33,386 nt of DNA, taken from positions 1-33,386 of the forward strand of contig JARLIP010000170.1 of assembly GCA_031291685.1 (NCBI GenBank), in the 5' to 3' direction. Source of the stretch: Caulobacteraceae bacterium. GTDB lineage: Bacteria > Pseudomonadota > Alphaproteobacteria > Caulobacterales > Caulobacteraceae. Numbering within the stretch: the first letter of the stretch is position 1; the number at the start of each line of letters is the position of its first letter. Shown here piece by piece: positions 10,034 through 32,451 of this stretch. The notes beneath the pieces were generated by a model. It had not been told where the DNA came from. It made no database searches and saw nothing but the letters and a program-made list of their open reading frames with translations. The position numbers and the translations under genes were made by a program.

Positions 10034-10145
10034 ATGAACCGCGCCTCCGCGACGCCAGCCGGCGCCCTAACAGGGCTAAGACGACGGCCAAGCTCAACCA
10101 CCTCAACCTGACATTGCGAAAATTTCAATGGGGCGCCCCGGTCCC

Positions 10146-11015
10146 GTGACGCCCCTGTCGATCCACAGCTTCTTCGCCATGGGCTCGCAGTGCGCGATCC
10201 ATCTGCAAGGCGACGATCCGGACGCAGCCCAAGGCCAGGCCCTGGCCGGCGAGGCCGAGGTGCGCCGGATCGAGGCGCGCTATTCACGATATCGCGACGA
10301 CAGCGAATTGGCGCGGATCAATCGCCTGGGGGCCGTGGGCGCCCCGGCCGAGCTTGACGATGAAACCCGTGGCCTGATCGCCTATGCCCAGGCCTGTTTT
10401 TACAAGAGCGGCGGGGCGTTCGACATCACCAGCGGCCTGTTGCGTCAGGCCTGGGATTTCAAGTCGGCTCGGATCCCGGACCCAGCCGAGATCGCCGCCC
10501 TGCTGCCTCGGATCGGCATGGACAAGCTGGCCCTGACGGGAAACATCCTGAGCTTCGCCGGCCCAGGTCTGGAGCTGGATTTCGGCGGATTGGGCAAGGA
10601 ATACGCCGCCGACCGCGCCGCCGAGACCTGCCAGACCCTGGGAGCGCGCTTCGGATTTGTCGATCTGGGGGGCGACGTGCGGGTGATCGGCCCGCAATGG
10701 GACGGCGAACCGTGGCGGTTCGGCGTGCGCGATCCCCGGCGGGCCGGGGCGGCCTTCGCCAGCGTCAGCCTGCTTGAGGGCGCCATCGCCACCAGCGGCG
10801 ACTATGAACGCTTCTTCGAGGCCGATGGCCGACGTCACCACCACATCCTCGATCCCCGGACCGGCTGGCCCGCCCAGGGCCTGTCCTCGGTCAGCGTCAT
10901 CGCCGATCGCTGTCTGGTCGCCGGCAGCCTGTCCACCGCGGCCCTGGTCATGGGCGAAGCGGGCGCGGCCTGGCTGGACGCCCTGGGCGTGCGCCATATC
11001 ACCGTGCCGGGATAA
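10146..11015 (+). CDS. apbE: FAD:protein FMN transferase (ApbE family)
   Basis: Attaches FMN from FAD to Ser/Thr of target proteins such as NqrB/C or RnfG subunits and FMN-binding-domain proteins. Family marks are the N-terminal FAMGSQCAIHL, RIEARYSRYRDDSELARINR, SGGAFDITSGLL, the Gly-rich LDFGGLGKEYAADRAA, GFVDLGGDVRVIG and the flavin/Mg site ATSGDYERFFEADGRRHHHI followed by LDPRTG. The start is taken as GTG 10146-10148 (289 residues); an ATG at 10128 adds six residues. There is no clear signal peptide or lipobox, so this copy looks cytoplasmic, unlike many ApbE proteins. No obvious flavinylation partner is nearby. Confidence 0.9.
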   Translation: MTPLSIHSFFAMGSQCAIHLQGDDPDAAQGQALAGEAEVRRIEARYSRYRDDSELARINRLGAVGAPAELDDETRGLIAYAQACFYKSGGAFDITSGLLRQAWDFKSARIPDPAEIAALLPRIGMDKLALTGNILSFAGPGLELDFGGLGKEYAADRAAETCQTLGARFGFVDLGGDVRVIGPQWDGEPWRFGVRDPRRAGAAFASVSLLEGAIATSGDYERFFEADGRRHHHILDPRTGWPAQGLSSVSVIADRCLVAGSLSTAALVMGEAGAAWLDALGVRHITVPG

Positions 11016-11784: not shown

Positions 11785-12090
11785 TCAAATATTGAACAGG
11801 CGCTTGACGAGCCCGGCCTCCATCGCCGCCGCCAGCCCCAGATAGGCGCTCAAGATATCCCCCAGGCTGTCGCCCGGGCCCCGCTCGCCCTTGCCCGTGG
11901 CGGTCCCTCGCGCACCACCGCTCGCCTTCAGGGCGCTCGCCTTCAGGGCGCTCGCCTTCAGGGCGCCCGCCGTCAGAGCGTTCTTCGCCTCCACGCGTTC
12001 TTCCTCCACGCCGCTCTCCCTGGCTCCCCTGGCGGGCGCCATCACAGCGCCCCCGTGATCCAAGACGCCGGCGCGGTTCGAACGCCTCAA
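11785..12090 (-). CDS. Hypothetical protein with pentapeptide ALKAS repeats
   Basis: A 101-codon frame (or 85 from the ATG at 12040-12042, which has a G-rich stretch upstream). The middle holds (S/G)ALKA repeats arising from a 15-base tandem repeat, followed by a Gly-rich linker and a hydrophobic C-terminus (SLGDILSAYLGLAAAMEAGL, then VKRLFNI). That could be an amphipathic or membrane-associated helix. No family is recognised. The repeat unit being a multiple of three and the tidy C-terminus give weak support to coding. It diverges from the ECF sigma gene. Confidence 0.35.
   Translation of the reverse strand: MRRSNRAGVLDHGGAVMAPARGARESGVEEERVEAKNALTAGALKASALKASALKASGGARGTATGKGERGPGDSLGDILSAYLGLAAAMEAGLVKRLFNI
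11921..11980. repeat. 15-base tandem repeat, three perfect copies plus one degenerate
   Basis: CTCGCCTTCAGGGCG occurs at 11921-11935, 11936-11950 and 11951-11965 without change, followed by a copy with three differences (11966-11980). It encodes the pentapeptide repeat in the small hypothetical protein on the minus strand. Confidence 0.9.
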
Positions 12091-12225: not shown

Positions 12226-12750
12226 GTGATTGTGGATGACCAGCAACCTGATCCGGTGCTTACCGCCTATCTGGAGCGCAGGCCCGCCCTGATCCGCTAT
12301 TTTTCCGTCCGCCTGCGCTCGGTGGAGGCGGCCGAGGAACTGGTCCAGGACATCTACCTGAAGATCGCCCGCCGCCCCGCGGAGGCGATCGAAAACCCGG
12401 ACGCCTTTCTGTTCCGCCTGGGCTCCAACCTGATGCTCGATCGCATCAAACGCGACCGCCGCGCCAAGCGACGCATCGAGGCCTATGGCGTGATCTATGG
12501 TTCAGGGGGCGAGCCGGCGGCGGACGAACCGGCGGCGGACGACGCCCTGGCCGCCCGCCAGAGACTGCAAACTATCGTCGAGGCGGTGAAGGCCCTGCCC
12601 GCCCCCGCCCAGACGGCCTTTCGCCTGCACAAGCTGGAAGGCCTCAGCCACGCCGAGACGGCCGCGGCCATGGGCGTCTCCCGCTCCAGCGTGGAAAAAT
12701 ATCTCATGGCCTGCCTCAAACAGATCCAGGACAAGGTGGGTCGCCCCTGA
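12226..12750 (+). CDS. ECF RNA polymerase sigma factor, FecI-like
   Basis: A 174-residue ECF sigma factor. Region 2 is RYFSVRLRSVEAAEELVQDI followed by YLKIARRP, and region 4 is ALPAPAQTAFRLHKLEGLSH followed by AETAAAMGVSRSSVEKYLM. The genes that follow (FecR, then an STN-bearing TonB receptor) place it in the iron-starvation FecI-like group, where the receptor signals through FecR to release the sigma factor. The linker between the regions carries a doubled EPAAD pentapeptide from a 15-base repeat (12511-12540). The start is a GTG; there is no clear ribosome site. Confidence 0.93.
   Translation: MIVDDQQPDPVLTAYLERRPALIRYFSVRLRSVEAAEELVQDIYLKIARRPAEAIENPDAFLFRLGSNLMLDRIKRDRRAKRRIEAYGVIYGSGGEPAADEPAADDALAARQRLQTIVEAVKALPAPAQTAFRLHKLEGLSHAETAAAMGVSRSSVEKYLMACLKQIQDKVGRP
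12511..12540 (+). repeat. Doubled 15-base repeat in the sigma2-sigma4 linker
   Basis: GAGCCGGCGGCGGAC (12511-12525) is followed directly by GAACCGGCGGCGGAC (12526-12540), one base different, encoding EPAAD twice in the flexible linker of the sigma factor. Confidence 0.85.
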
Positions 12751-12847
12751 TGAACAGACAAATTCGATCAGCTTGGAGGCGATGGCCCCATTGTGGCGTC
12801 ATTCGGGCAGGGGCTGGAGCGTCGGCCCGCTGGGGCGAAAATCGCCG

Positions 12848-13870
12848 ATGAGCGGCATGGTGGAACAGGCTGGATCCGATGAACTGCGCGCGCGGGCGAT
12901 CGCCTGGCACGTGCGGCTGCAGTCCGACCGCGCCACGGCGGACGATTGGGCCGCTCTGACGGCCTGGCTCGATGAATCCGAGGCCCATCTAGCCGCCTTC
13001 GAGGCCGTCGAGACCCTGGCCGCGGAACTCGACGCCAAGGCGGATTCGATTCGCGCCGCCCTCGCTCCCCCAGTCCTTGCTCCTCCAGTCCTTGCTCCTC
13101 CAGTCCTAGCTCCCCCTGTGTTGGGACGCGCCCGCCCGGACACGCGCCGGATCCGGTGGCCCGCCTGGACCGCCCTGGCGGCGGCCTGTGTCGCCGGACT
13201 GATGATCGCGCCTTGGGCCTGGAACGGCTGGCTGGGCTCGCCCGTCACCTATCGCACCGCCATCGGCGAGACCCGCGCCATCACCCTGGCGGACGGCAGC
13301 CACATCCATCTGGACGGCGGCTCGACCCTGAGCGTTCGCCTGGGCTGGGGGCAAAGGCGCGTCGCCCTGGGCGAGGCCCAGGCCAGCTTCGATGTGGCCA
13401 AGGATCCACGTCGTCCCTTCGTGATCGACGCGGGAGATGAGCGGATCCGCGTGGTCGGCACCGAGTTCAATATCCGCCACTACGACGCCTCCCTCGTACT
13501 GTCCGTTCGGCGGGGCGTGGTCGAGGTGCGCAGCCCCGGATCGGGGAACGCCATGGTCGCCCGGCTGCGCAAGGGCGATGAACTTCGCCATCAGGACGGC
13601 CAGGCCCAGGCCACCCTGACCTCGGTGGACCCCGACGCCGCCTTCGCCTGGAGCACGGGCCGGCTGATCTGCTCAGATCGCCCCCTGGGCGAGATCGTGT
13701 CGGACCTGAACCATCGGTACGCCTTGCCGATCCAGGTCTCGGGGCCGGCGGCGCAACGGCGCTTCACCGGCGTGCTGATCCTGGGCGATCAGGACGCCCT
13801 GGTTCGCCACCTCGCCGGCTACATGGCCCTGTCGCAGGAGCGGCGACCCGACGCGATCATCCTGCGCTGA
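12848..13870 (+). CDS. FecR-family anti-sigma / transmembrane signal transducer
   Basis: Residues about 8-60 form the DUF4880 anti-sigma domain (ARAIAWHVRLQSDRATADDW). There follow a Pro-rich linker with four APPVL repeats, one membrane helix (WTALAAACVAGLMIAPWAW), the periplasmic FecR domain (TRAITLADGSHIHLDGGSTL through FVIDAGDERIRVVGTEFNIR) and a C-terminal STN-like segment (GRLICSDRPLGEIVSDLNHR). It holds the ECF sigma factor until the receptor's signalling domain contacts it. The ATG at 12848 gives 340 residues; an upstream TTG (12773) adds 25 unlikely ones. The gene lies 97 bases after the sigma gene. Confidence 0.93.
   Translation: MSGMVEQAGSDELRARAIAWHVRLQSDRATADDWAALTAWLDESEAHLAAFEAVETLAAELDAKADSIRAALAPPVLAPPVLAPPVLAPPVLGRARPDTRRIRWPAWTALAAACVAGLMIAPWAWNGWLGSPVTYRTAIGETRAITLADGSHIHLDGGSTLSVRLGWGQRRVALGEAQASFDVAKDPRRPFVIDAGDERIRVVGTEFNIRHYDASLVLSVRRGVVEVRSPGSGNAMVARLRKGDELRHQDGQAQATLTSVDPDAAFAWSTGRLICSDRPLGEIVSDLNHRYALPIQVSGPAAQRRFTGVLILGDQDALVRHLAGYMALSQERRPDAIILR
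13064..13123 (+). repeat. Four copies of a 15-base repeat in the FecR linker
   Basis: Units of the GCTCCTCCAGTCCTT type occur four times in tandem, encoding APPVL x4. The middle copies are nearly identical and the last diverges (GCTCCCCCTGTGTTG). They lie between the cytoplasmic anti-sigma domain and the membrane helix, where length change should be tolerated. Confidence 0.9.
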
Positions 13871-13951
13871 AGCCGCGATGACCTTGCCACATGGGTCGCC
13901 AGGGTCAGAAAATCCCTCACGCTGACCATTGTCAGGCTCTAGGCTGATCGA

Positions 13952-16414
13952 ATGTCGTCACCCGATCCGGCCCGCGCGACGCGACGCGCCACGATGCGCC
14001 CCTGGCGAGCCGCGATTCTGCTGCTGGCGATGATGGCCGCGCCCCAAGGCCACGCCGCCGAAGCCGAGGCCCTGTTCCGGATCGAGCCCAAGCCCCTGAC
14101 GGCGGCGCTGACGGACTTCGCCCTCCAGGCCAATGTTTCGGTCAGTACCGAAGCCGCCAGCCGATGCGCGCCCCTTCGCCATCCCCTGATCGGCCGCTAC
14201 GCCCATCGCACGGCCCTGGCGATGATCCTGGCTGGCAGCGGCTGCGGCTTTCGCCAGATTGACGCCACCGCCTTCGTCATTGTCCGAACGCCCCCGCCGA
14301 CGCCAGCGGCGGCCCCCGCCCAGCGTCCGCCCGCGCAGGCCCCGCCGCCAGCGCCCCTGAGCGTTCCCTTGGTGGTGGTCGCCACCCGACGGCCTACCCC
14401 GATCGATCGCCTCGCCTACTCGATCAGCGTCGCGGATCGCAGCGCCCTGGCCGCCATGGGAATCGAGGACGCCGGCGGGCTGTCCCAGATCACCCCGGCC
14501 ATGATCACCACCAACCTGGGGACCGGCCGGGACAAGATCCTGCTGCGCGGCCTGTCCGACGGACCTCTGACCGGCCGGGCGCAGTCCATGGTGGGGCTCT
14601 ATCTCGATGAGGTGCGCCTGACCTTCAACGCCCCGGACCCTGACCTTCTGCTGGCCGACGTGGATCAGGTCGAGGTTCTGCGCGGGCCCCAGGGCACGCT
14701 CTATGGGGCAGGCTCCCTTGGCGGCGTGGTTCAGATTCAGACCGCGCTACCCGATCCGAGGGCCCTGCGCGCCGCGCTCTCGGCCACCCTGGGCGCGACG
14801 CAGGGCGGCGCGGGGTCGGACGCGGCCCAGGGCATGCTCAACCTGCCCCTGGCCGGTGGCCGGGCGGCGGCGCGCCTGGTGCTCTATCGCGAGACCCAAG
14901 GGGGCTACATCAAGGATTCGACCCTGCGGCTGAACAACGTCAATCAGGTGGAGCGCACGGGGGGACGCTTGGCCCTGAAGCTTGATCTGGCGCCGCGCTG
15001 GACCCTGTCGGCCGGAACAGCCTTCCAGGCCATCAACGCCAAGGACACCCAGTACGCCCTCGCCGACAATCCGCCCTACACCCGCAATAATCGCCTGCGC
15101 GAACCCCACGACAATGATTTCAACGAATACCATCTCGCCCTTCATGGGGACCTGGGATGGGGGGTGCTGCGCACCAGCCTGGCCTATATCGAGCACGACC
15201 TCACCAGCCGCTATGACGCCACCGATGCGCCGCCCGTTCCCTCGCCGCCGGGGCCGGCGGCCTTCGATGACGAGACCCACATCCGCAGCCTGGTGCTGGA
15301 GACCACCCTCTCCTCCCCATCCAGGGCCTCCCCATCCGGCGGCCCAGCGCAGTGGCTCGCGGGGGCCTATTTCGCCGACACCGGCCAGACCCAGCATTCG
15401 GCCCTGACGATCCTGAACGCCGCGCCGACGACATCCTATCAGGACACCCGCCGTGATCGCCTCGACGAAGGCGCCCTGTTCGGCGAGGTGACCCTTTACC
15501 CTCTACCCCTCACCAGCCTGACCCTCGGCGGGCGGTTATCATCGTCCCACGACCAGGTCTCCAGCCTGATCCGCGAGCCCCTCGCCGGGATTTCCTCGCC
15601 CTATCGGGGCGCCGCGGCCCAGTCGGGGTTCGCACCCAAGGTGGTCATCAGCGTGCGGCCGACACCCAAGATCCTCGTCTATCTCCAGGGCGGCGAAGGC
15701 TTTCGGGCGGGCGGACTGAACACCACTGGGCTGACCCAGACCTCCGGCGGGTCGGCGGAGCAGGCGGCGCGGCGCCGATACTCGGGGGATGAACTCTGGA
15801 GCGTCGAGGCCGGTCTCAGGCTCAGCCTGTTGCAGGAGCGCCTGCATCTGGATCTCACCGCCTTCGAGGCCTATTGGAAGAACATCCAAAGCGACCAGCT
15901 GCTGCCCTCGGGGCTCCCCTACACGGTCAATATCGGGGACGGGCGCAATACCGGCCTGGAATTCGAGGGCCGTTTCCGATCCGGCGGCTTGGAACTGAGG
16001 GGCGAGTTCCTGTTCAACAGCCCCGAACTGGCCCGGGTCAATCCCACTCTTCCCGCACTCGCCGATCAGAGCCTGGCCGTGGCGCCAAACGTCAGCTTGG
16101 GCGTATCGGCGCACTATGCCTGGCCCCTTCAGGATCGCCGATCCTTCTCGCTGGATGGGCGCTGGGCCTATGTGGGCGTCTCTAGCCTGACCCTCAACGC
16201 CGCCCCCACGCCGAAGATGGGGGGCTACGCCACCGGCCGTCTGGCGGCGAGCGTGTTCAGTCCGCGCTGGCGCGTGACCCTGGCCCTCGACAACCCCGCC
16301 AACGCCCGCGGCGACACCTTCGCCTTTGGCGACCCCTTCAGCCTGGGCGCGGCGCGTCAGGTCACGCCCCTTCGACCGCGGACCCTGTCCCTGACCCTGG
16401 CGATCAGCCAATAG
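13952..16414 (+). CDS. TonB-dependent outer-membrane receptor with N-terminal STN signalling domain
   Basis: An 820-residue FecA/FpvA-like transducer. A signal peptide (MRPWRAAILLLAMMAAPQGH, then AAEAE) starts best from the ATG at 13994, with an upstream ATG at 13952 also in frame. It is followed by the STN domain (FRIEPKPLTAALTDFALQAN to about residue 115), a Pro/Ala linker, a TonB-box-like PLVVVATRR, the plug (VEVLRGPQGTLYGAGSLGGV) and a 22-strand-type barrel. It probably takes up a ferric siderophore or similar ligand and signals through the FecR and sigma factor upstream, 81 bases away. The C-terminus ends ...SLTLAISQ, without the usual terminal aromatic residue. The ligand is unknown. 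Confidence 0.94.
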   Translation: MSSPDPARATRRATMRPWRAAILLLAMMAAPQGHAAEAEALFRIEPKPLTAALTDFALQANVSVSTEAASRCAPLRHPLIGRYAHRTALAMILAGSGCGFRQIDATAFVIVRTPPPTPAAAPAQRPPAQAPPPAPLSVPLVVVATRRPTPIDRLAYSISVADRSALAAMGIEDAGGLSQITPAMITTNLGTGRDKILLRGLSDGPLTGRAQSMVGLYLDEVRLTFNAPDPDLLLADVDQVEVLRGPQGTLYGAGSLGGVVQIQTALPDPRALRAALSATLGATQGGAGSDAAQGMLNLPLAGGRAAARLVLYRETQGGYIKDSTLRLNNVNQVERTGGRLALKLDLAPRWTLSAGTAFQAINAKDTQYALADNPPYTRNNRLREPHDNDFNEYHLALHGDLGWGVLRTSLAYIEHDLTSRYDATDAPPVPSPPGPAAFDDETHIRSLVLETTLSSPSRASPSGGPAQWLAGAYFADTGQTQHSALTILNAAPTTSYQDTRRDRLDEGALFGEVTLYPLPLTSLTLGGRLSSSHDQVSSLIREPLAGISSPYRGAAAQSGFAPKVVISVRPTPKILVYLQGGEGFRAGGLNTTGLTQTSGGSAEQAARRRYSGDELWSVEAGLRLSLLQERLHLDLTAFEAYWKNIQSDQLLPSGLPYTVNIGDGRNTGLEFEGRFRSGGLELRGEFLFNSPELARVNPTLPALADQSLAVAPNVSLGVSAHYAWPLQDRRSFSLDGRWAYVGVSSLTLNAAPTPKMGGYATGRLAASVFSPRWRVTLALDNPANARGDTFAFGDPFSLGAARQVTPLRPRTLSLTLAISQ

Positions 16415-22029: not shown

Positions 22030-23823
22030 TCAGTTCCGATCGGTCTGCCCTGAAACAAGTTCCGACAGGGCGTCCAGGCCAATCGGCGGCTCGGCTTGCC
22101 AGGGAACGACAAATATCCGCTCGGAAAGCTCACGCTCAATGCGCTCCATCTGCCGCAGCTCGCCTAGGAGGCGGGCCTTGAGCAAGGGGTCGCTGGTTCC
22201 GGCGGCGGCGAGGCTCTTATTGACCACCCAGCCATAGGTCTCGATCCGCGCCCGCCGCAGATCCGCTTGGAGGGCCTGCGCCTGCAACACCGGCGTCGGC
22301 TCGGGAACCGTGACCAGGATGATCCGGGTGTAGCTGGCGTCTTGCAGCCGCATGAGCGGCGTTACGATATGGCCGTGGGATGTGGCGTCAAACTCGCGCA
22401 TCGTCTGCCGGTGATAGGCGCCCGTCGCATCCATCAGCAGCAGGGTATGCCCCGTGGGGGCGGTGTCGAGCACGACATAGGCGTCCTTCGCCTCGCGGAC
22501 GGTCCGCGAAAAGGCATGAAACACCGCCACCTCCTCGGTGCAGGGCGAGGCGAGATCCTCGCGCAGCAGATCGAGTTCATCCGGGTTCAGGGACGGGCCG
22601 CGCGCGGCGACCATCTTGTCGATATAATCCTTCGTCTCCCGCTTGGGATCGATGCGGTCGACCCGCAGTCCAGGCATCTCTCCGGCCAGGGTCATGGCGA
22701 GGTGGGCGGCCGGGTCCGTGGTGCTCAGATGCACCGCCTTGCCGCGTTTCACCAGGCCGATCGCCAGGGCCGAGGCGATCGTGGTTTTTCCGACGCCCCC
22801 CTTGCCCATGACCATGACCAGCCCAGGGCCAACCGCGGCCAACTCGTCGGCCAGGCGGTCCAGTCCGGCATGGGCCTTCATCGGACCCACGGCGACGGCG
22901 GCCTCGACATAGCTGGGCTGCGCGCTCAGGAGCGCCCGCAACGCGGCCAATCCCATCATGTTGAAGCCGCGCAGCGGGATCTCGTCCCGAGGCAGGGCGC
23001 TCAGCTGCGGCGACATTCCAGCGATCGCCTCCCGACCGCTGACCTCAAGGGAGTGGGCCGTCCGATCCTGGGGATCGCTCGCGTGGAAGACGCCGTTGAT
23101 GGCCAGCCGCTGATTGCCGAGCCCGAGGGCGCGAAGCTCCTCCGAGGTCCGGGAAGCCTCCGCGATCGCGCCCTTCTCCGGCCGCGTCACCAGGACCACG
23201 GCGGTCAGGGCGGCGTCACCGAGGGAGGCCAGCGCGGTCTTGAACCGGTCCTCCTGCATCTTCAGTCCGGAATGCGGCCCCAGGCACGAGGCGCCGCGGT
23301 CATTGTCCTTGAGAAATCCGGTCCAGGCCTTCGGCAGGCTGAGGAGGCGCAGGGTATGGCCCGTTGGCGCGGTGTCGAAAATGACGTGATCATAGGCCTC
23401 CACCCTATCGGCCAGCAGGGCGGCGAACTCGTCAAAGGCGGCGATCTCCGTGGTGCAGGCGCCGGATAGCTCCTCACGGACCGTCGCGCGTTCGGCCTCG
23501 CTCGCGTCCGGCGCCATCTGCGCCAGCACCCGCCCGCGATAGGCGTCGGCGGCGGCCTCTGGATCTATATTCATCACCAGCAGGCCGGGCGCGCCCGGGA
23601 CCGGGGTCGGGGTATCCTTGAGTTCCGCGCCGAGCATCTCGTCCAGGTTCGAGGCGGCGTCGGTGCTGACCAGCAGGACCGACTTGCCCGCGTCCGAGAG
23701 CGCCAAGGCCGTGGCGGCGGCGAGGGAGGTCTTGCCGACCCCGCCCTTGCCGGTGAAGAACAGATGGCGGGTCGGATGCGCCAGCAGTCCCAGCGCGAGC
23801 TTCTCCTCGGGGCGATCCGTCAT
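22030..23823 (-). CDS. arsA: ArsA-type arsenite-stimulated ATPase, two-domain
   Basis: A 597-residue tandem ATPase close to E. coli ArsA length. Each half has a P-loop (GKGGVGKTS at 25-33, GKGGVGKTT at 340-348) and the signature DTAPTGHT (150-157, and again in the second half). The three cysteines that bind As(III)/Sb(III) in ArsA are all present in their contexts: C123 (GACTTEIAAFDEF), C180 (GASCLGPHSG) and C428 (SPCTEEVAVFHAFSR). In known operons ArsA energises the ArsB efflux pump and receives metalloid from ArsD. No arsB, arsD, arsC or arsR is in the window. The ATG at 23821-23823 is chosen; earlier residues are Arg-rich and unlikely. It may serve arsenite efflux with a pump encoded elsewhere. 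Confidence 0.93.
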   Translation of the reverse strand: MTDRPEEKLALGLLAHPTRHLFFTGKGGVGKTSLAAATALALSDAGKSVLLVSTDAASNLDEMLGAELKDTPTPVPGAPGLLVMNIDPEAAADAYRGRVLAQMAPDASEAERATVREELSGACTTEIAAFDEFAALLADRVEAYDHVIFDTAPTGHTLRLLSLPKAWTGFLKDNDRGASCLGPHSGLKMQEDRFKTALASLGDAALTAVVLVTRPEKGAIAEASRTSEELRALGLGNQRLAINGVFHASDPQDRTAHSLEVSGREAIAGMSPQLSALPRDEIPLRGFNMMGLAALRALLSAQPSYVEAAVAVGPMKAHAGLDRLADELAAVGPGLVMVMGKGGVGKTTIASALAIGLVKRGKAVHLSTTDPAAHLAMTLAGEMPGLRVDRIDPKRETKDYIDKMVAARGPSLNPDELDLLREDLASPCTEEVAVFHAFSRTVREAKDAYVVLDTAPTGHTLLLMDATGAYHRQTMREFDATSHGHIVTPLMRLQDASYTRIILVTVPEPTPVLQAQALQADLRRARIETYGWVVNKSLAAAGTSDPLLKARLLGELRQMERIERELSERIFVVPWQAEPPIGLDALSELVSGQTDRN

Positions 23824-23957
23824 GCGCTTGGCTTTCCATCCTCGTTGCGACCACGCTCGCGCAAGGCGTGCGATACGGCGCCCCAGTAGCAACAACGGCC
23901 GGGGCCTTGCCTCAGCCGTCCCGCGTCTTCTTGGTCACTCGCTTGAACGCGCGCCGA

Positions 23958-25407: not shown

Positions 25408-26682
25408 TTGCCGGAGCCTGCGGCCATCCTAGACCCGACCCTTCTGAACCTCGCCGTGGCGCTGGGCATCGGCCTCTTGATCGGCGCCGAGCGCGAACGG
25501 CGCAAGGGTCAGGGTCCGTCGCGATCATCGGCGGGGATCCGCACCTTCGCGGCGGTGTCGCTTCTGGGCGGTGTCAGCGTCCTGATCGGCGGGGCGCCCA
25601 TGCTGGGGGTCGGCGTGGCGAGCGTAGCGGGGCTCGCCGCCCTTGGCTATTGGCGCAATCGCGACAGCGATCCGGGCCTGACCACCGAGGTCGCCCTGGT
25701 TCTGACGGCCCTGCTCGGCGGGCTCTGTCTTCATCAGCCCACCCTGGCGGCGGCGCTCGGCGTCGCCGTGGCGGTGCTGCTGGCGGCCCGCTCGCCCCTG
25801 CATCACTTCGTCAACGCCGTGCTAACCGAAGCCGAGGTCAAGGACGCCCTGATCTTCGCCAGCGCGACCCTGGTGGTCCTGCCGCTCCTGCCGGATCGCG
25901 CCTTTGGGCCCTATGGCGCCCTGAACCCCCATGCGATCTGGATCGTGGTGGTGCTGGTCCTGGGGATCAGCGCCGCCGGCCACATCGCCGTTCGCCTGCT
26001 GGGCGTGCGCTTTGGCCTGCCCCTGGCTGGCCTGGCCTCCGGCTTCATCTCCAGCGTGGCGACCATCGGCGCCATGGGCGGCAGAGCCCGCGCCGCGCCA
26101 TCCCTGCTGGCGGGGGCCGTTGCCGGAGCGGTGCTTTCGACCCTGGCCACCATCGTGCAGATGAGCGCCGTCGTCGCCGTCACCAGCGTCTCCACCCTGA
26201 TCGCGCTCAGGCCCTCCCTTATCTGCGCCGGCATAGCCGCCGCCCTCTATGGACTGGTCTTTTCCGTCGCCGCCCTGCGCCAAAGGCCCCAGGACAAGAC
26301 CGAGCTGGGTCCAGCCTTCAGCCTGCCCGCCGCCCTGGGCTTCGCCCTGACCCTGGCGGTGGTGCTGCTGGCGGCGGGCGCCCTGCGGGATCGATTTGGC
26401 GAGGCCGGCGCGACCGTCGCCGCCGGCCTCGCCGGCTTCGTCGACGCCCATTCGGCGGCCATATCGATCGCCGCCCTGACGGCCTCCGGAAAGCTGCCCG
26501 CCGCCGACGCCGTGATCCCGATCCTGGTGGGTCTTTCCACCAATACGATCAGCAAGATGGTCTTCGCGGCGACCGGCGGCGGGCGTTCCTTCGCCCTGAG
26601 GGTGATCCCGGGCCTGATCCTGGTGACCCTGGCCGCCTGGGCCGGAACCCTCATTGGCCCGGCCGGTCCGCTCCCGCATTGA
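25408..26682 (+). CDS. MgtC/SapB and DUF4010 family membrane protein
   Basis: A 424-residue polytopic protein. The N-terminal third is MgtC/SapB-like (LNLAVALGIGLLIGAERERR, SSAGIRTFAAVSLLGG, TTEVALVLTALLGG) and the rest is DUF4010 (EAEVKDALIFASATLVVLPL, GLASGFISSVATIGAMGG, ILVGLSTNTISKM). About a dozen hydrophobic helices are visible. MgtC proteins are tied to Mg homeostasis and to F1Fo ATP synthase in pathogens, but this DUF4010 fusion type has no settled function. The start is a TTG just before LPEPAAILD. No ribosome site is seen. It converges with the DUF1810 gene. Confidence 0.88.
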   Translation: MPEPAAILDPTLLNLAVALGIGLLIGAERERRKGQGPSRSSAGIRTFAAVSLLGGVSVLIGGAPMLGVGVASVAGLAALGYWRNRDSDPGLTTEVALVLTALLGGLCLHQPTLAAALGVAVAVLLAARSPLHHFVNAVLTEAEVKDALIFASATLVVLPLLPDRAFGPYGALNPHAIWIVVVLVLGISAAGHIAVRLLGVRFGLPLAGLASGFISSVATIGAMGGRARAAPSLLAGAVAGAVLSTLATIVQMSAVVAVTSVSTLIALRPSLICAGIAAALYGLVFSVAALRQRPQDKTELGPAFSLPAALGFALTLAVVLLAAGALRDRFGEAGATVAAGLAGFVDAHSAAISIAALTASGKLPAADAVIPILVGLSTNTISKMVFAATGGGRSFALRVIPGLILVTLAAWAGTLIGPAGPLPH

Positions 26683-27150: not shown

Positions 27151-29241
27151 TTAGTGGATCAGGGAACTCACGGTCCGGCTCAGGCCCTGGACGTCAAAGG
27201 GTTTGCGCAGCACCACCGCCCCGCTGATCCCCTCAAGGGCGATAGTGTCGAAATAGCCGCTGACAAAGACGATCGGCAGGCCCGGCCGCATCTTCTGGAC
27301 CCTGCGCGCGACCTCGGCGCCGTTCATTCCGGGCATGATGAAGTCGATGATCGCGGCGACCGGTTTGAGCTGTTCGAGAAGCTCCAGGCCTTCCTCGCCG
27401 CTCGCCGCCTGGGCGATCTGAAACCCCGCCGCCTTCAGCGCATCGACCATGACCGAGCGGACGTCCCGATCATCGTCGATCACCAGCAGCAGGCGCCCCT
27501 CGCCGGTGTTCGCGGGCGCGGGTCCCACGCGCGCCGCCGGCCCGTTCGCCAGGGCGGCGGCCGGGGCCTGGGGCAAGAAGAGTTCGATGCTCGCCCCACT
27601 CCCGACCGCGCTGGAGATTTTCAGATCTCCCCCCGACTGCCGCACGAAGCCATAGACCTGGGACAGGCCAAGGCCGGTGCCCTGGCCGCGCGGCTTGGTG
27701 GTGTAGAAGGGATCGACCGCCCTGGCCGCGACCTCGGGCGCCATGCCCTGGCCGGTGTCGGTCACGCGCACCCAAAGATAGTCGCCCTCCTTGTCCTCCG
27801 TGCTGAGGCGGGTGCGGACGGCGCCGCTTTCGATCGTGAGGGAGCCGCCCACTGGCATGGCGTCCCGACTGTTGAGCGCCAGGTTGAGGATGGCCAGTTC
27901 CAACTGGTCGGGATCGGTCGCCGCCCAAAGGCCGGGGGCGTTCAGCCGCATCTGGATATCGATCTGTGGCCCAAGGGCGCTGCCCACCAGGTCGCGAGCG
28001 CTGCGCAGGACGGGATCCAGCTCGATCGGCCGGATGTTCAGCTTCTGAATGCGGGAAAAGGCCAGGAGCTGGCCGGTCATCTTGGAGCCCTTGTCGACCG
28101 CCTGCTTGGCGTTTTCGAGATATCGCCGAACCGACGCCTCAAGACCGGGCTGTCCGAGCGAAAGCTGCAGGTTGCCGCTGATGGCCATCAAGAGGTTGTT
28201 GAAGTCGTGGGCGATACCGCCGGTGAGCTGCCCGACGGCCTCCATGCGCTGAGCGCGAAGCAGGGCCGCTTCGGCCTTGAGCCGCTCGGCGCTTTCAACG
28301 GCCAGCTCCTGCGCCTGGTCCGCGAGGCGCCGCTCCAGGGCGCTGGCCAGCGCCTCCTGAAGAGCGTTTTTTTCTCGGCGTTCGTCCTCGATGGCGTCGA
28401 GCCGGCGGCCGTCGCGCAGGATCAGCAGCGCCAGGGGGATGATGGTCAGGACCACCAGAAAGGCCATGGCCGCGCCGGGCCCGAGCCGATGGGCGTCAAA
28501 GGCCCGCAGCAGGAGGCCCCCGACAATGGGCGGAACCAGAACGAAGGTGAACTGCCGCCTCACCGTGGCGCCGCCGACGCCCTTCGACGTAAAGACCTCC
28601 GCCCAGCCGCCCTCAGGCTGGTTGAAGATCGAGACCCCGGACATCAGCAAGATGCCCGTGGCGGTGTGCAGCGCCATGGTGCGAAAGATCGGAACCGCAT
28701 AGAGGTCCTTCACCCCATAGACATAGCCGATCAGGGCCATGCCCGATACGGCAAGGGACAGGCCGGCCAGCAGATCCGCCCGGTGGGGGCGCGCCCTGTT
28801 CAGGCTCGCCATCGCCAGGGCGAGCAGGCAGCCGGCCGTCGCCACGGAGGTTCGCCCGGCCGCGGCCGGATCATAGCCAAAGATCGTCTTGGCGACCGCG
28901 GGTCCAAGGGGATCCGAGCCCAGGGCCAGGTTGAGGCCGAGCAGCAGAGCGCTGAGGGCGAGCACCGCCCAGGCGATCAGGCTCGCCAGGCGCGGGCGCT
29001 GGAAAATCTCCGCGAACGCAGCCGCCGCCAAGCCCAGAAGGCCCAGGGCGGTCAAGGGAGACATGCCTTGCAGGCCCGGCGCGACGGCGATCAGGGCGGG
29101 CGCATGAATTCCATAGCCGACAAGCACCGACATGGCCGCCAAGACGACCAGGGCGGTAACGCCCGTCGTTACGATTGGGAGGCTTCCAAGCCGGCTCGCC
29201 GTCAACGCCCTCACCCCAGAATGCGATTCCTCGAAGATCAA
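27151..29241 (-). CDS. Membrane-bound hybrid histidine kinase with receiver domain
   Basis: A protein of about 696 residues (starts TTG 29239-29241, or GTG 29212-29214). Seven or eight hydrophobic helices fill residues 20-275 and are the sensor. Then come a coiled-coil-like segment (about 280-330), the dimerisation/phosphoacceptor domain with H345 (QLTGGIAHDFNNLLMAISGN), the catalytic domain (ILNLALNSRDAMP, VTDTGQGMAPE, GTGLGLSQVYGFVRQSGGDL) and a C-terminal receiver with D633 (IIDFIMPGMNG) and the SGYF and KPF segments. It phosphorylates its own receiver or a partner; no stand-alone regulator is adjacent. The stimulus is unknown. The next gene on the transcript is the DUF1810 gene. Confidence 0.93.
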   Translation of the reverse strand: MIFEESHSGVRALTASRLGSLPIVTTGVTALVVLAAMSVLVGYGIHAPALIAVAPGLQGMSPLTALGLLGLAAAAFAEIFQRPRLASLIAWAVLALSALLLGLNLALGSDPLGPAVAKTIFGYDPAAAGRTSVATAGCLLALAMASLNRARPHRADLLAGLSLAVSGMALIGYVYGVKDLYAVPIFRTMALHTATGILLMSGVSIFNQPEGGWAEVFTSKGVGGATVRRQFTFVLVPPIVGGLLLRAFDAHRLGPGAAMAFLVVLTIIPLALLILRDGRRLDAIEDERREKNALQEALASALERRLADQAQELAVESAERLKAEAALLRAQRMEAVGQLTGGIAHDFNNLLMAISGNLQLSLGQPGLEASVRRYLENAKQAVDKGSKMTGQLLAFSRIQKLNIRPIELDPVLRSARDLVGSALGPQIDIQMRLNAPGLWAATDPDQLELAILNLALNSRDAMPVGGSLTIESGAVRTRLSTEDKEGDYLWVRVTDTGQGMAPEVAARAVDPFYTTKPRGQGTGLGLSQVYGFVRQSGGDLKISSAVGSGASIELFLPQAPAAALANGPAARVGPAPANTGEGRLLLVIDDDRDVRSVMVDALKAAGFQIAQAASGEEGLELLEQLKPVAAIIDFIMPGMNGAEVARRVQKMRPGLPIVFVSGYFDTIALEGISGAVVLRKPFDVQGLSRTVSSLIH

Positions 29242-29341
29242 CCAATAGCTTAGCGCACATCGAAGCGCCGCGCCCGTGACGTCTTCGCACAGTCACACGC
29301 GACAATCACCCGAGAGCGCACGCTCTCGATCAGCGCCGCCC

Positions 29342-29378
29342 TTGACTTCGATATATCGAATATTATATCATAAGATAT
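29342..29378 (+). promoter_or_regulatory. Predicted padR promoter overlapped by two palindromes
   Basis: TTGACT (29342-29347) lies 16-18 bases before TATATC/TATCAT (29364-29371), a sigma70-like pair. The perfect palindrome TTCGATATATCGAA (29347-29360) fills the spacer, and ATATC-N4-GATAT (29365-29378) covers the -10 and the first bases of the padR ATG (29377). Self-repression by PadR would fit. The transcript would begin at or near the start codon. Confidence 0.6.
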
Positions 29379-29982
29379 GTTTTACGATACGCATCCCAAT
29401 TCTCATCGCGGCCATGGCGGCCCTCACGGGGGCGGCGGTCGCGGCGGCTTCTGGCGCGGCGGCGGCGGTCCCGATGATTTCGGTCGCGGGCGCAAACTAA
29501 GTTCGGAGGCGCTGCAGCTTCTGCTCCTAGGTCTGCTGGAGAACGGTCCGGCCCATGGCTATGAGCTGATGCGGCGGCTGGAGGAGCATTCGGGGGGCTA
29601 CTATTCGCCCAGTCCCGGGATGATCTATCCGGCCCTCGCCTATCTGGACGACGCGGGCGAAATCGTCGCCGAGGCCCAGGGCAATCGAAAAAGCTATCGG
29701 CTCACCCCCCAAGGCGAGCACCGCCTGAACCAGAACCGCGACGTCTTCGACGCCCATATGAGCAGCCTGGGCCAGATCGGCTCGCGCATGCAGGAGGTCC
29801 GGGACGCCTTCACCGGCCTTCATGACCAGGACCCCGCCGCGGCCAACGACCTGCACGAGGCCCGCCACCGCCTCAAACAGGCGCTCTATCAGAAGCGCGG
29901 CTGCTCCCCCGAGGAAGCCCGCCGCATCGCCGACGCCCTGAACCGGCTCGCGGACGAAATCCTGGGCCCCACCAAATCCTAA
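29377..29982 (+). CDS. PadR-family regulator with His/Gly-rich N-terminus (NfeR/YqjI-like)
   Basis: A 201-residue regulator. The first 38 residues are His/Gly-rich (His at 6, 10, 13 and 17), a probable metal-binding arm. Next is the PadR winged helix (LLLLGLLENGPAHGYELMRR, YYSPSPGMIYPALAYLDDAG, YRLTPQGEHRLNQN) and a C-terminal dimerisation helix. The same plan occurs in E. coli YqjI (NfeR), which binds nickel or iron and represses the ferric reductase gene yqjH. Here a siderophore-interacting protein gene follows on the same strand, supporting that likeness. No ribosome site precedes the ATG, and a promoter overlaps it, so the mRNA may be leaderless. Confidence 0.9.
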   Translation: MFYDTHPNSHRGHGGPHGGGGRGGFWRGGGGPDDFGRGRKLSSEALQLLLLGLLENGPAHGYELMRRLEEHSGGYYSPSPGMIYPALAYLDDAGEIVAEAQGNRKSYRLTPQGEHRLNQNRDVFDAHMSSLGQIGSRMQEVRDAFTGLHDQDPAAANDLHEARHRLKQALYQKRGCSPEEARRIADALNRLADEILGPTKS

Positions 29983-30005
29983 GTCCCTTCAAGGAAATGA
30001 ACATC

Positions 30006-30767
30006 ATGAGCCAAGACGCCCCCACGGCCACCCGGCTCAAGCGGGTGCGGATCGAGCCCAAGCGGCGCACCCTCACCGTCGTCGCCATCGAGGCATTGAC
30101 CCCCGGAATGCGCCGCATCCGCTTTCAATCCCCCGCGCTCCAGGACTTCTCCAGCCTGTCCCCGGACGACCACATCAAGCTGTTCTTCACCGGGGCGGAT
30201 GGGGCGACGATCATGCGGGACTACACCCCTCGCGGCTTCGACAACGCAGCCGCGACCCTGGTGATCGATTTCGCGCTGCATGAGGCGGGACCGGCCACGG
30301 CCTGGGCGATCGCGGCCAAGGTCGGCGACACCCTGGAGATCGGTGGCCCCCGCGGCTCTACGGTCGTCCCCGATGTCTTTGCCTGGTATCTGCTGATCGG
30401 CGACGAAACCGCCCTGCCCGCCATCGCCCGGCGGGTCGAGGAACTGCCGCCGGGGACCGCCGTGACCACCATTGTGACCGTGGACAGCGCCAAGGAGATC
30501 CAGTCTTTCAAGACCACGGCCAATTGGACCGCCGAATGGGTTCTCCGCGACATCGCCGGGCAGGACGATATCGCCAATGTTCGGCAGGCGATCGGCCGGC
30601 TGACCCCGACGACCGCGAACGGCTTCGTCTGGATCGCCGGGGAGGCTCAGTTCGCCAGGAGCCTGCGCGTCTGCCTGATCGAGGAGCATGGCCACCCCGC
30701 CATCGACATGAAGGCGGCGGGCTATTGGGTGCGGGGCGCGGAGGGCGCACACCAGCCCCTCGATTGA
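30006..30767 (+). CDS. Siderophore-interacting protein (NAD(P)H-dependent ferric-siderophore reductase)
   Basis: A 253-residue flavoreductase of the ViuB/YqjH type. The FAD-binding stretch is MRDYTPRGFD with VIDFALHEAGPATAWAIAAK and GDTLEIGGPRGS, followed by the nucleotide domain (YLLIGDETALPAIARRVEEL, FVWIAGEAQFARSLRVCLIE) and the conserved end KAAGYWVRGAEGAHQ. It releases iron from imported ferric siderophores by reduction in the cytoplasm. AAGGA sits 10 bases before the ATG at 30006 but only 1 base from the ATG at 29997, which decides the start. It follows padR by 23 bases, so PadR probably controls it. Confidence 0.92.
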   Translation: MSQDAPTATRLKRVRIEPKRRTLTVVAIEALTPGMRRIRFQSPALQDFSSLSPDDHIKLFFTGADGATIMRDYTPRGFDNAAATLVIDFALHEAGPATAWAIAAKVGDTLEIGGPRGSTVVPDVFAWYLLIGDETALPAIARRVEELPPGTAVTTIVTVDSAKEIQSFKTTANWTAEWVLRDIAGQDDIANVRQAIGRLTPTTANGFVWIAGEAQFARSLRVCLIEEHGHPAIDMKAAGYWVRGAEGAHQPLD

Positions 30768-30795
30768 TCGCTTGGATATTGGAGGGGCGAGCCCC

Positions 30796-31203
30796 ATGAT
30801 CACCGCCGAGGACGCCATCCGGGCGCGCCGCAGACTGACCAACAAGTTCATCGCCGCCCACGAGGCCGCGAGACTGCGCCCGTTCATGACCCCCGACATC
30901 AAGGTGATCGCCGGCGACGGAAGCCTGCTGGTGGGGGTCGAGCAGGTTCTGGGCGCCTTCCATGATCAGTTCCAGGACCCCGCCTTCCTGACCTATGAGC
31001 GCAAGACCGCCAGTGTCTCCATCGACGCCGACGGCGCGCGGGCCGCCGAGCGGGGACAATGGGTCGGCCGCTGGAAGCCCACCGCCCCGACAAGCCTGCT
31101 GAACGGCGATTACCTGGCCGCTTGGCGCAAGGTCCATGGGCAATGGGTCATTGATTCCGAACTCTACATCACCCTGGGAGCCGAAGACCCCGCCGAGGCC
31201 TGA
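30796..31203 (+). CDS. NTF2/SnoaL-like (DUF4440-type) protein
   Basis: A 135-residue single-domain protein with the cone-shaped NTF2-like pattern: ARRRLTNKFIAAHEAARLRP, FMTPDIKVIAGDG, VGVEQVLGAFHDQFQDPAFL, NGDYLAAWRKVHGQWVIDSE. Such domains are enzymes of small-molecule metabolism or binding modules; no catalytic residues can be named here. GGAGGGG lies about 8 bases before the ATG at 30796. It follows the siderophore-interacting protein by 28 bases and is likely the last gene of the padR unit. Confidence 0.85.
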   Translation: MITAEDAIRARRRLTNKFIAAHEAARLRPFMTPDIKVIAGDGSLLVGVEQVLGAFHDQFQDPAFLTYERKTASVSIDADGARAAERGQWVGRWKPTAPTSLLNGDYLAAWRKVHGQWVIDSELYITLGAEDPAEA

Positions 31204-31215
31204 GGTCCGATTGGG

Positions 31216-32451
31216 TCAGACCTCAATGGAATCGGCTTCCTGGGTCAGGCGCTCGCAGGTGGCCAGGTCCCGCCGAGCGAAGGCGGCCGCCGCGGTCTTG
31301 CGCAGGAGCAGGAGCGCGGCCTTGGGCTGGCGCACCCTCAACCTGGCGGCCCAGGCCTCGGTCTCGGCATAGGGCGCCTTGATCTCATCGGCCCGGGTCT
31401 CGATCATCCGCGCGGCCTCGGGCAGGGCCGGCCAGTCCATCAGGAACCGCAAGCCCCTGGGGAAGTCGGGATGCCGGGCGGCGTGGTCGAAGGCGCGGCC
31501 CTCGGCCTCCACGTCCTGGAAATCCGTCAGGCGCCGGGTGAAGGCGCGGGCCCGCTCGACGGAGAGGGTGCGCTCGAACGAGGCCCAGCGCACGGCCTGG
31601 GCCTCGGCCTCCTGGCCGGACTGGTCGAGATAGTCGATCCAGACGCTTTCCCAGGCGAAATCGGGCTCGGACGCAACGTTCTTGGCCGCCTTCAGCCGCT
31701 CACCGGCCTCCTTCAGCCGCCCCGCCGCGATCAGGCGCCGGCCGAGCTCCGCCGCAATGGCCGGCGTCCGCAGCATCGCGGGGGAAAAGGTCGCCTGGAA
31801 GATGTCGATATTCCCCGCCGCATCCGCCAACTGGCGGACCAGCCCGATGACGATGGGTCCGGGCCCCTTATCCGCCGTCAGCCGAGCCAGCGCGCCCTTG
31901 GCCACCCCCTGGGGCGCCTGATCCAGGACCAGTGGCAGCCAGGTGGTCCAGCGGGCGGTGTCCCTGACCAGGGCCTCGGCCAGATCGTCGGCCAGCGACG
32001 CCTCCCCCGCCTGGCGCATCAGGGCGCCGATATCCTCCGCCGCCCGGTCGAACACCGCCTCAAGGCCGCCGTCCGGGTCGCGCACCCGGGGGGAAAGACG
32101 CCGGGCCAGGGCCATGAACGGCCACAGCCGCTGTAGCGCCGCCGGGGCGTCGAGGGCGGCCAGGCGCTCTGAGATCAGGATGCGCAGGATATCGAGGTCG
32201 CGCACGAAGGTGGGGCGCTGGCGCCAGGAGATCTTCGAGCGGCCGGTTTCAAGCACGGCGATGCGTTTGTCGATTTCCAGCAGCAGATGCGGCGCGCCCT
32301 GGGCGGCGGCCAGCTCCATGCGCAACTGGCGCTTCAGCTCCGCCCGCCCGTCGGCGGCCCGCATCAGGATCTCCGCCAACCGCTCGGCCCCGAGGTTGGC
32401 GAGGTTCTCGGGGGTCAGGGTCTTGCGGCTGGCGACGGTGGGACGCTTCAC
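31216..32451 (-). CDS. DUF6880-type hypothetical protein
   Basis: A 411-residue, mostly alpha-helical cytoplasmic protein. The start region (KTLTPENLANLGAERLAEIL, ELKRQLRMELAAAQGAPHLL) and the block RQRPTFVRDLDILRILISER are of the DUF6880 type, common in alphaproteobacteria and without known function. The rest is repeated helix pairs, like a tetratricopeptide or SEL1-like solenoid (LGRRLIAAGRLKEAGERLKA), so it may be a protein-binding scaffold. The GTG at 32449-32451 is favoured; upstream codons give a Ser/Arg/Gly-rich stretch. It lies 165 bases downstream of the glutathione peroxidase gene. Confidence 0.78.
   Translation of the reverse strand: MKRPTVASRKTLTPENLANLGAERLAEILMRAADGRAELKRQLRMELAAAQGAPHLLLEIDKRIAVLETGRSKISWRQRPTFVRDLDILRILISERLAALDAPAALQRLWPFMALARRLSPRVRDPDGGLEAVFDRAAEDIGALMRQAGEASLADDLAEALVRDTARWTTWLPLVLDQAPQGVAKGALARLTADKGPGPIVIGLVRQLADAAGNIDIFQATFSPAMLRTPAIAAELGRRLIAAGRLKEAGERLKAAKNVASEPDFAWESVWIDYLDQSGQEAEAQAVRWASFERTLSVERARAFTRRLTDFQDVEAEGRAFDHAARHPDFPRGLRFLMDWPALPEAARMIETRADEIKAPYAETEAWAARLRVRQPKAALLLLRKTAAAAFARRDLATCERLTQEADSIEV

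Follow-up and report, generated by a model that had tools for sequence, protein, structure and literature searches.

A padR-type gene with a predicted leaderless start inside its own candidate operator heads a ferric-chelate reductase operon in a Caulobacteraceae bacterium

The NfeR/NfeF (YqjI/YqjH) pair of E. coli joins a PadR protein with a histidine-rich N-terminal arm to a neighboring siderophore-interacting ferric reductase. NfeR requires conserved cysteines for nickel sensing, and E. coli nfeF is under Fur control. NfeR is a repressor of nfeF in both E. coli and Klebsiella, and in E. coli the repression is lifted by excess nickel; in an nfeR deletion nfeF rose 85-fold (PMC7981267). The closest precedent in design for the locus considered here is another operon, the leaderless acuR-acuI-dddL of Rhodobacter sphaeroides. 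As PMC3017554 describes it, the repressor gene comes first, the promoter (TTGATT/TATTAT) is overlapped by an inverted-repeat operator, the first gene lacks a Shine-Dalgarno sequence and the downstream genes have one, the transcript start was mapped exactly to the AUG, and the repressor is translated less than the downstream genes. No homology to that operon is claimed; its repressor is of the TetR family and released by acrylate, and its enzymes are different ones. Leaderless messages are ordinary in Caulobacter crescentus, where 375 mRNAs are reported to start at the start codon and leaderless and led mRNAs to be translated with similar efficiency (PMC4117421), and where the housekeeping promoter motif begins 34-37 nt ahead of 1,542 of 1,666 transcription starts (PMC4287350). 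The leaderless mRNAs of that organism have the form predicted here, but they are a transcript class and not a regulator family.

The locus occupies positions 29342-31203 of a 33,386-nucleotide stretch of a Caulobacteraceae bacterium (GCA_031291685.1, contig JARLIP010000170.1), which as a whole is called the window. Three genes lie there in the same direction, on the + strand. The first, padR (29377-29982), encodes 201 amino acids matching PF03551 (PadR; E 3.9e-18). A His/Gly-rich arm (residues 1-40, with four histidines, at 6, 10, 13 and 17), His-rich as in NfeR, precedes the PadR domain (residues 50-118). The start was placed at ATG 29377; an in-frame TAA at 29371-29373 closes the frame upstream, and no further in-frame ATG, GTG or TTG was read from the sequence ahead of the DNA-binding domain. 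The second gene (29997-30767, 256 aa, with an alternative start at ATG 30006) encodes a siderophore-interacting protein of the ferric-chelate reductase family that carries both the FAD-binding and the SIP domain (PF08021, 6e-27; PF04954, 2.2e-31); ViuB and others among its relatives have solved structures, and ferric-chelate reductase activity is probable from family membership. The third (30796-31203) encodes a DUF4440/NTF2-like protein of 135 amino acids (PF14534, E 2.3e-8) and has a strong Shine-Dalgarno sequence of its own; its end is 12 nt from that of a convergent DUF6880 gene. The intergenic gaps of 14 nt (padR/reductase) and 28 nt (reductase/NTF2-like gene), and the absence of a terminator-like site, fit a single operon. 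All the features stated in the preliminary description are present: the three genes, the arm histidines, the promoter and the palindromes.

A -35 element, TTGACT (29342-29347, + strand), lies 35 nt ahead of the padR ATG. The -10 region (29362-29371, + strand) may be read as TATCAT at 29366-29371 or, by an alternative alphaproteobacterial-type consensus, TTGACTT-N13-ATTATATC, as ATTATATC at 29362-29369. TTGACT-18 nt-TATCAT is the single promoter-like site found in 29100-31400, shuffled sequences yielding 0.3 (sd 0.6). Two palindromes overlap this promoter. Predicted operator 1 (29347-29360), in the promoter spacer, is the perfect palindrome TTCGATATATCGAA and carries a GATATATC core; predicted operator 2 (29365-29378), ATATCATAAGATAT, consists of ATATC and GATAT around ATAA, and overlaps the -10 region, the predicted start point of transcription and the A and T of the padR start codon. 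That start point, set from the promoter spacing and the Caulobacter spacing, coincides with the start codon (29377-29379, + strand; range 29375-29379). Pairing with the anti-Shine-Dalgarno sequence is only -1.5 kcal/mol ahead of padR, compared with -5.4 ahead of the reductase gene and -9.8 ahead of the NTF2-like gene. A promoter under two palindromes that runs up to the ATG with no ribosome site, as first described, is present. A Fur box at this promoter was considered and rejected: the best match in 29340-29400 scores 10/19, no better than the 9-12 reached by most of 500 single-base shuffles of it, and the best in 29230-29420 scores 11/19.

The case that the palindromes are operators comes from their recurrence. 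The own genome was searched over 3,934,149 bases in 361 contigs (80.87% complete). TCGATATATCGA has a single exact occurrence there, at padR, where 0.027 would be expected at an assumed 67% GC; with at most one mismatch it is found in four places, against one for the reversed control. Of the three sites with one mismatch, that at C243:8429 immediately precedes the genome's other close PadR gene, whose product is the sole further match to the window PadR in that genome at E ≤0.001. With at most one mismatch ATATCNTANGATAT is found only at the window site, and its control once. The GATATATC core occurs twice in the E. coli nfeF-nfeR intergenic region, as TCAGATATATCTAA and TTAGATATATCTAATT; in the window, the site at the padR promoter that carries this core is a candidate NfeR-type binding site.

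Of 86 related padR genes, 79 are preceded by GATATATC or by a palindrome of the second type and seven lack both, against 1 of 722 control windows with such a motif. The proportions are 28 of 30 loci in the window's family (window counted; control 0/243), 26 of 28 in the class sample (control 1/235) and 25 of 28 in family f31 (control 0/244), and they fall to 17 of 54 in named distant relatives (2 of 56 skipped), against 4 of 1,346. For these counts a constant length of 260 bases upstream of the PadR domain was scanned at the best-scoring loci of each search, and the motif was picked after 16 promoters, some of them among the counted loci, had been read. A genome-contig search with the window PadR found distant matches only, at 56 loci (38% in the top row); in plasmid searches the reductase and the PadR proved widespread, with no closer relative. 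These comparisons support well the reading of the palindromes as operators that serve a broad family of regulators, and the core common to the E. coli nfeF/nfeR sites and most relatives examined supports the proposal that the PadR protein would repress itself through palindromes over its promoter.

The leaderless reading was examined in the closest relatives. A PadR search of family f31 matched 92 of 200 genomes; the best 21 (E ≤4.1e-40; 71 weaker f31 matches were left out) together with the window gave 22 padR genes. In 13 of them, the window among them, a -35 TTG(A/C) lies 34-36 nt ahead of the ATG; none of the 13 has a Shine-Dalgarno sequence of at least 5 nt, a 4-nt match in 10 of them being part of the operator, and operator 2 lies at the ATG in 12. 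In seven the TTG lies 51-57 nt ahead of the ATG, and six of these have a Shine-Dalgarno sequence of at least 5 nt with pairing of -7.4 to -9.5; L189 has the long spacing and no such sequence. The remaining two (L204 and L133) lack such a TTG, and L204 has a Shine-Dalgarno sequence. The contrast of 0/13 with 6/7 gives a Fisher p of 0.00018 in a simple test that ignores kinship among the rows; five of the six led forms make up one clade, and two changes between led and leaderless account for the labels on the tree. Start codons were picked by the analyst where several were possible, most clearly in L189, L193 and L198. The f31 genes nearest in kind (L132, L186-L203) encode 19 PadR proteins 54-59% identical to the window's over most of their length; 12 have the TTG at 34-36 nt and no Shine-Dalgarno sequence, like the window, and six have a led promoter.

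The padR mRNA thus probably begins at the start codon itself, which lies inside the repressor's own predicted site. The leaderless message supposed in the preliminary description is well supported, at the level of sequence, by a geometry common to relatives and by the Shine-Dalgarno sequences of six of the seven relatives whose promoter is further upstream. It is highly improbable that the operators are real and the mRNA is nonetheless led in the cell, by virtue of a promoter further upstream, or is translated by another route. Relatives with a leader do occur in the same clade, and the leaderless start is a prediction from sequence; but padR is the only one of 31 window genes (heuristic gene calls) with TTG(A/C) 34-37 nt ahead of its start, it has no Shine-Dalgarno sequence, the promoter-like site is the single one in 29100-31400, and 12 other close relatives have the same geometry.

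A pattern for an operator at the start codon, ATATCNTAAGAYATG, was drawn from the padR promoters after some had been viewed. In the 200 f31 genomes it occurs in 14 places in 13 genomes, and the reversed pattern nowhere. Ten of the 14 are padR start codons, all with TTG at 34-36 nt; nine of these were already among the 22 genes, and that of G608 is new. A further place (L246) is the padR upstream region of G783, in the opposite orientation, and L242, L243 and L254 lie ahead of frames of 49, 24 and 23 codons. At L242 (G795:C123) ATATCATAAGACATG is accompanied by a TTG at -35, ahead of a 49-codon frame unlike padR; it is possible that this is another leaderless target or a relic. Within the window's own family, of which 129 genomes were scanned, the pattern is found in two places, the window padR and one ahead of a 31-codon frame, and the reversed pattern in one.

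The resemblance to NfeR/NfeF extends to 48 identical residues in 121 aligned columns between the window PadR and NfeR (residues 6-122) and to 79 of 251 between the reductases. The E. coli genes are divergent, whereas those of the window are co-directional; E. coli nfeR has a Shine-Dalgarno sequence (aaaggagg ahead of the ATG) that the window padR lacks, and the window operon carries an extra gene, for DUF4440. In a PadR tree of 36 rows (arms removed, midpoint root, NfeR on a long branch), NfeR and eight other rows form a clade (100/98) that includes the second PadR (C243) of the window's own genome, and the window PadR stands outside this clade with f31 rows (88/85; inner group 82/86). The arms differ as well, with four His and no Cys in the window and 12 His and seven Cys in NfeR. 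Among the 22 close PadR proteins the arms have 3-16 His and 0-1 Cys (18 of 22 have no Cys), and the positions of the arm histidines are poorly kept; at the C-terminus C176 is kept in 18 of 22, and H160 and H164 in 19 each, where NfeR differs. The first description of the pair as a copy of NfeR/NfeF is therefore not supported. That it is functionally orthologous to NfeR/NfeF and responds to nickel in the E. coli manner, which the identities and the common operator core would favor, is quite improbable given the place of the window PadR outside the nine-row NfeR clade, with C243 inside it (on a tree with a long NfeR branch and midpoint root), an arm without Cys, and a promoter at which, unlike that of the Fur-controlled E. 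coli nfeF, no Fur-box-like site rises above shuffles. The C243 gene itself (G000:C243; L178, L184) encodes a PadR of the NfeR clade and has TCGATATATCTA just upstream of its likely start, and the two PadR proteins of this genome may bind each other's sites. A literature search of titles and abstract openings yielded no description recognised as that of the window PadR clade or of a leaderless padR, which is weak evidence of absence.

In a reductase tree of 29 rows the window sequence groups with L160, L161, L166, L167 and L168 (87/79). All f31 reductases but L199 fall instead with NfeF (80/80), apart from that of the window. Since PadR and reductase are placed differently, the histories of the two genes may differ, and there is a hint, of moderate support, that the window operon was reshuffled from a PadR and a reductase of different lineages.

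Operons that join padR and the reductase gene in this way are common and not special to the window. Fourteen reductase regions were taken from the searches of family, relatives and class; padR adjoins the reductase gene in nine of them (G553 of f31 included), and three further loci from two actinobacterial species have padR and reductase within about 1 kb. The one-operon arrangement proposed earlier fits the layout, then, and fails as a distinctive feature. Within f31 the reductase gene adjoins padR at 12 of 21 loci. The NTF2-like protein, as had been said, is an addition to the pair: its gene does not follow the reductase gene in the nine padR-reductase operons, nor does it occur at the 21 f31 loci, each viewed to about 1.5 kb from where the PadR matched. 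Its own relatives are found at seven loci in five other genomes (with the own genome, 6 of 372 gave a match); neither the PadR nor the reductase of the window is matched in the sequence examined at any of them, and GATATATC is absent at the six of the seven that were checked (L240 left out). As a conserved partner the gene was accordingly rejected, being linked to padR or the reductase gene at no other locus examined, and since every other such locus lacks it, it is most likely a local addition.

The gene identities, the operators with their conservation, and the leaderless geometry with its counterpart in relatives are computed results; from them we infer binding, repression, transcript start, ligand and physiological role, in a reading that, taken whole, we regard as reasonably probable: a self-repressed, signal-released operon with a leaderless repressor start, and with metal as the likeliest signal. 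A PadR dimer would bind one or both palindromes at 29347-29378 and block RNA polymerase at the promoter of all three genes; by analogy with the repression of nfeF by NfeR, PadR should keep the operon that encodes it shut and leave the DNA on meeting its signal. Transcription would then start at the padR ATG or within 2 nt of it, the repressor would be translated from its leaderless start and the two downstream genes from their own ribosome sites, and the reductase would free iron from ferric chelates. The acuR-acuI-dddL design suggests a purpose for the leaderless first gene, namely to hold the repressor below the enzyme; here too it might be kept scarce relative to the enzyme while rising along with it, as measured for that operon in PMC3017554. 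This dose-keeping is uncertain because leaderless and led Caulobacter mRNAs are reported in PMC4117421 to be translated similarly.

The likeliest signal would be a divalent metal (Ni, Co, Zn or Fe), for which the histidine-rich arm would supply the ligands, perhaps with a share taken by H160, H164 and C176. Metal as the ligand, taken from the arm and the reductase, is a guess and the weakest step, and the make-up of the arm does not support nickel in particular. Other PadR proteins bind organic ligands. It is conceivable, if unlikely, that the same self-repressed leaderless operon answers a non-metal signal (heme, flavin, a ferric chelate or an aromatic compound in the PadR dimer), the His/Gly arm merely tuning DNA binding or solubility. 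An arm with four His and no Cys, the poor keeping of arm histidines among relatives and the nine of 21 f31 relatives without an adjacent reductase gene would suit such a signal; all 22 arms are nevertheless rich in His, and the gene often found next to padR encodes an iron reductase. Those nine loci also argue that control of the reductase does not fully explain why the regulator is kept. Metal release remains the preferred reading. A more elaborate form of it, which we put forward only tentatively, would make these proteins a sister family of NfeR with the start codon within the operator, in which switching among lineages between leaderless and led forms of the operon tunes the repressor against the enzyme dose, and metal is sensed without the NfeR cysteines by way of the His arm and H160/H164/C176.

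Elsewhere in the window, an ECF sigma factor, a FecR and a TonB-dependent receptor stand in a row (Pfam) at 12226-16414, 13 kb upstream of the operon; the reductase might use the substrate of this iron-uptake type cassette. Between the cassette and the operon lie an ArsA-type ATPase (22030-23895; PF02374) and an MgtC + DUF4010 membrane protein (25408-26682; PF02308, PF13194). An ApbE flavin transferase is encoded at 10128-11015, and at 11785-12090 lies a frame in which the peptide LKASALKASALKAS is repeated, with weak support for its being a gene.

Leaderless repressor-first operons and NfeR/NfeF were already known, and the locus is no radical departure from them. It indicates that the NfeR-type operator core extends well beyond the enterobacteria, and the window PadR, if metal-sensing, cannot use the arm cysteines of NfeR. 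The leaderless and leadered versions of what appears to be one self-repressed operon provide natural pairs in which the effect of a leaderless start on repressor dose would be measurable.
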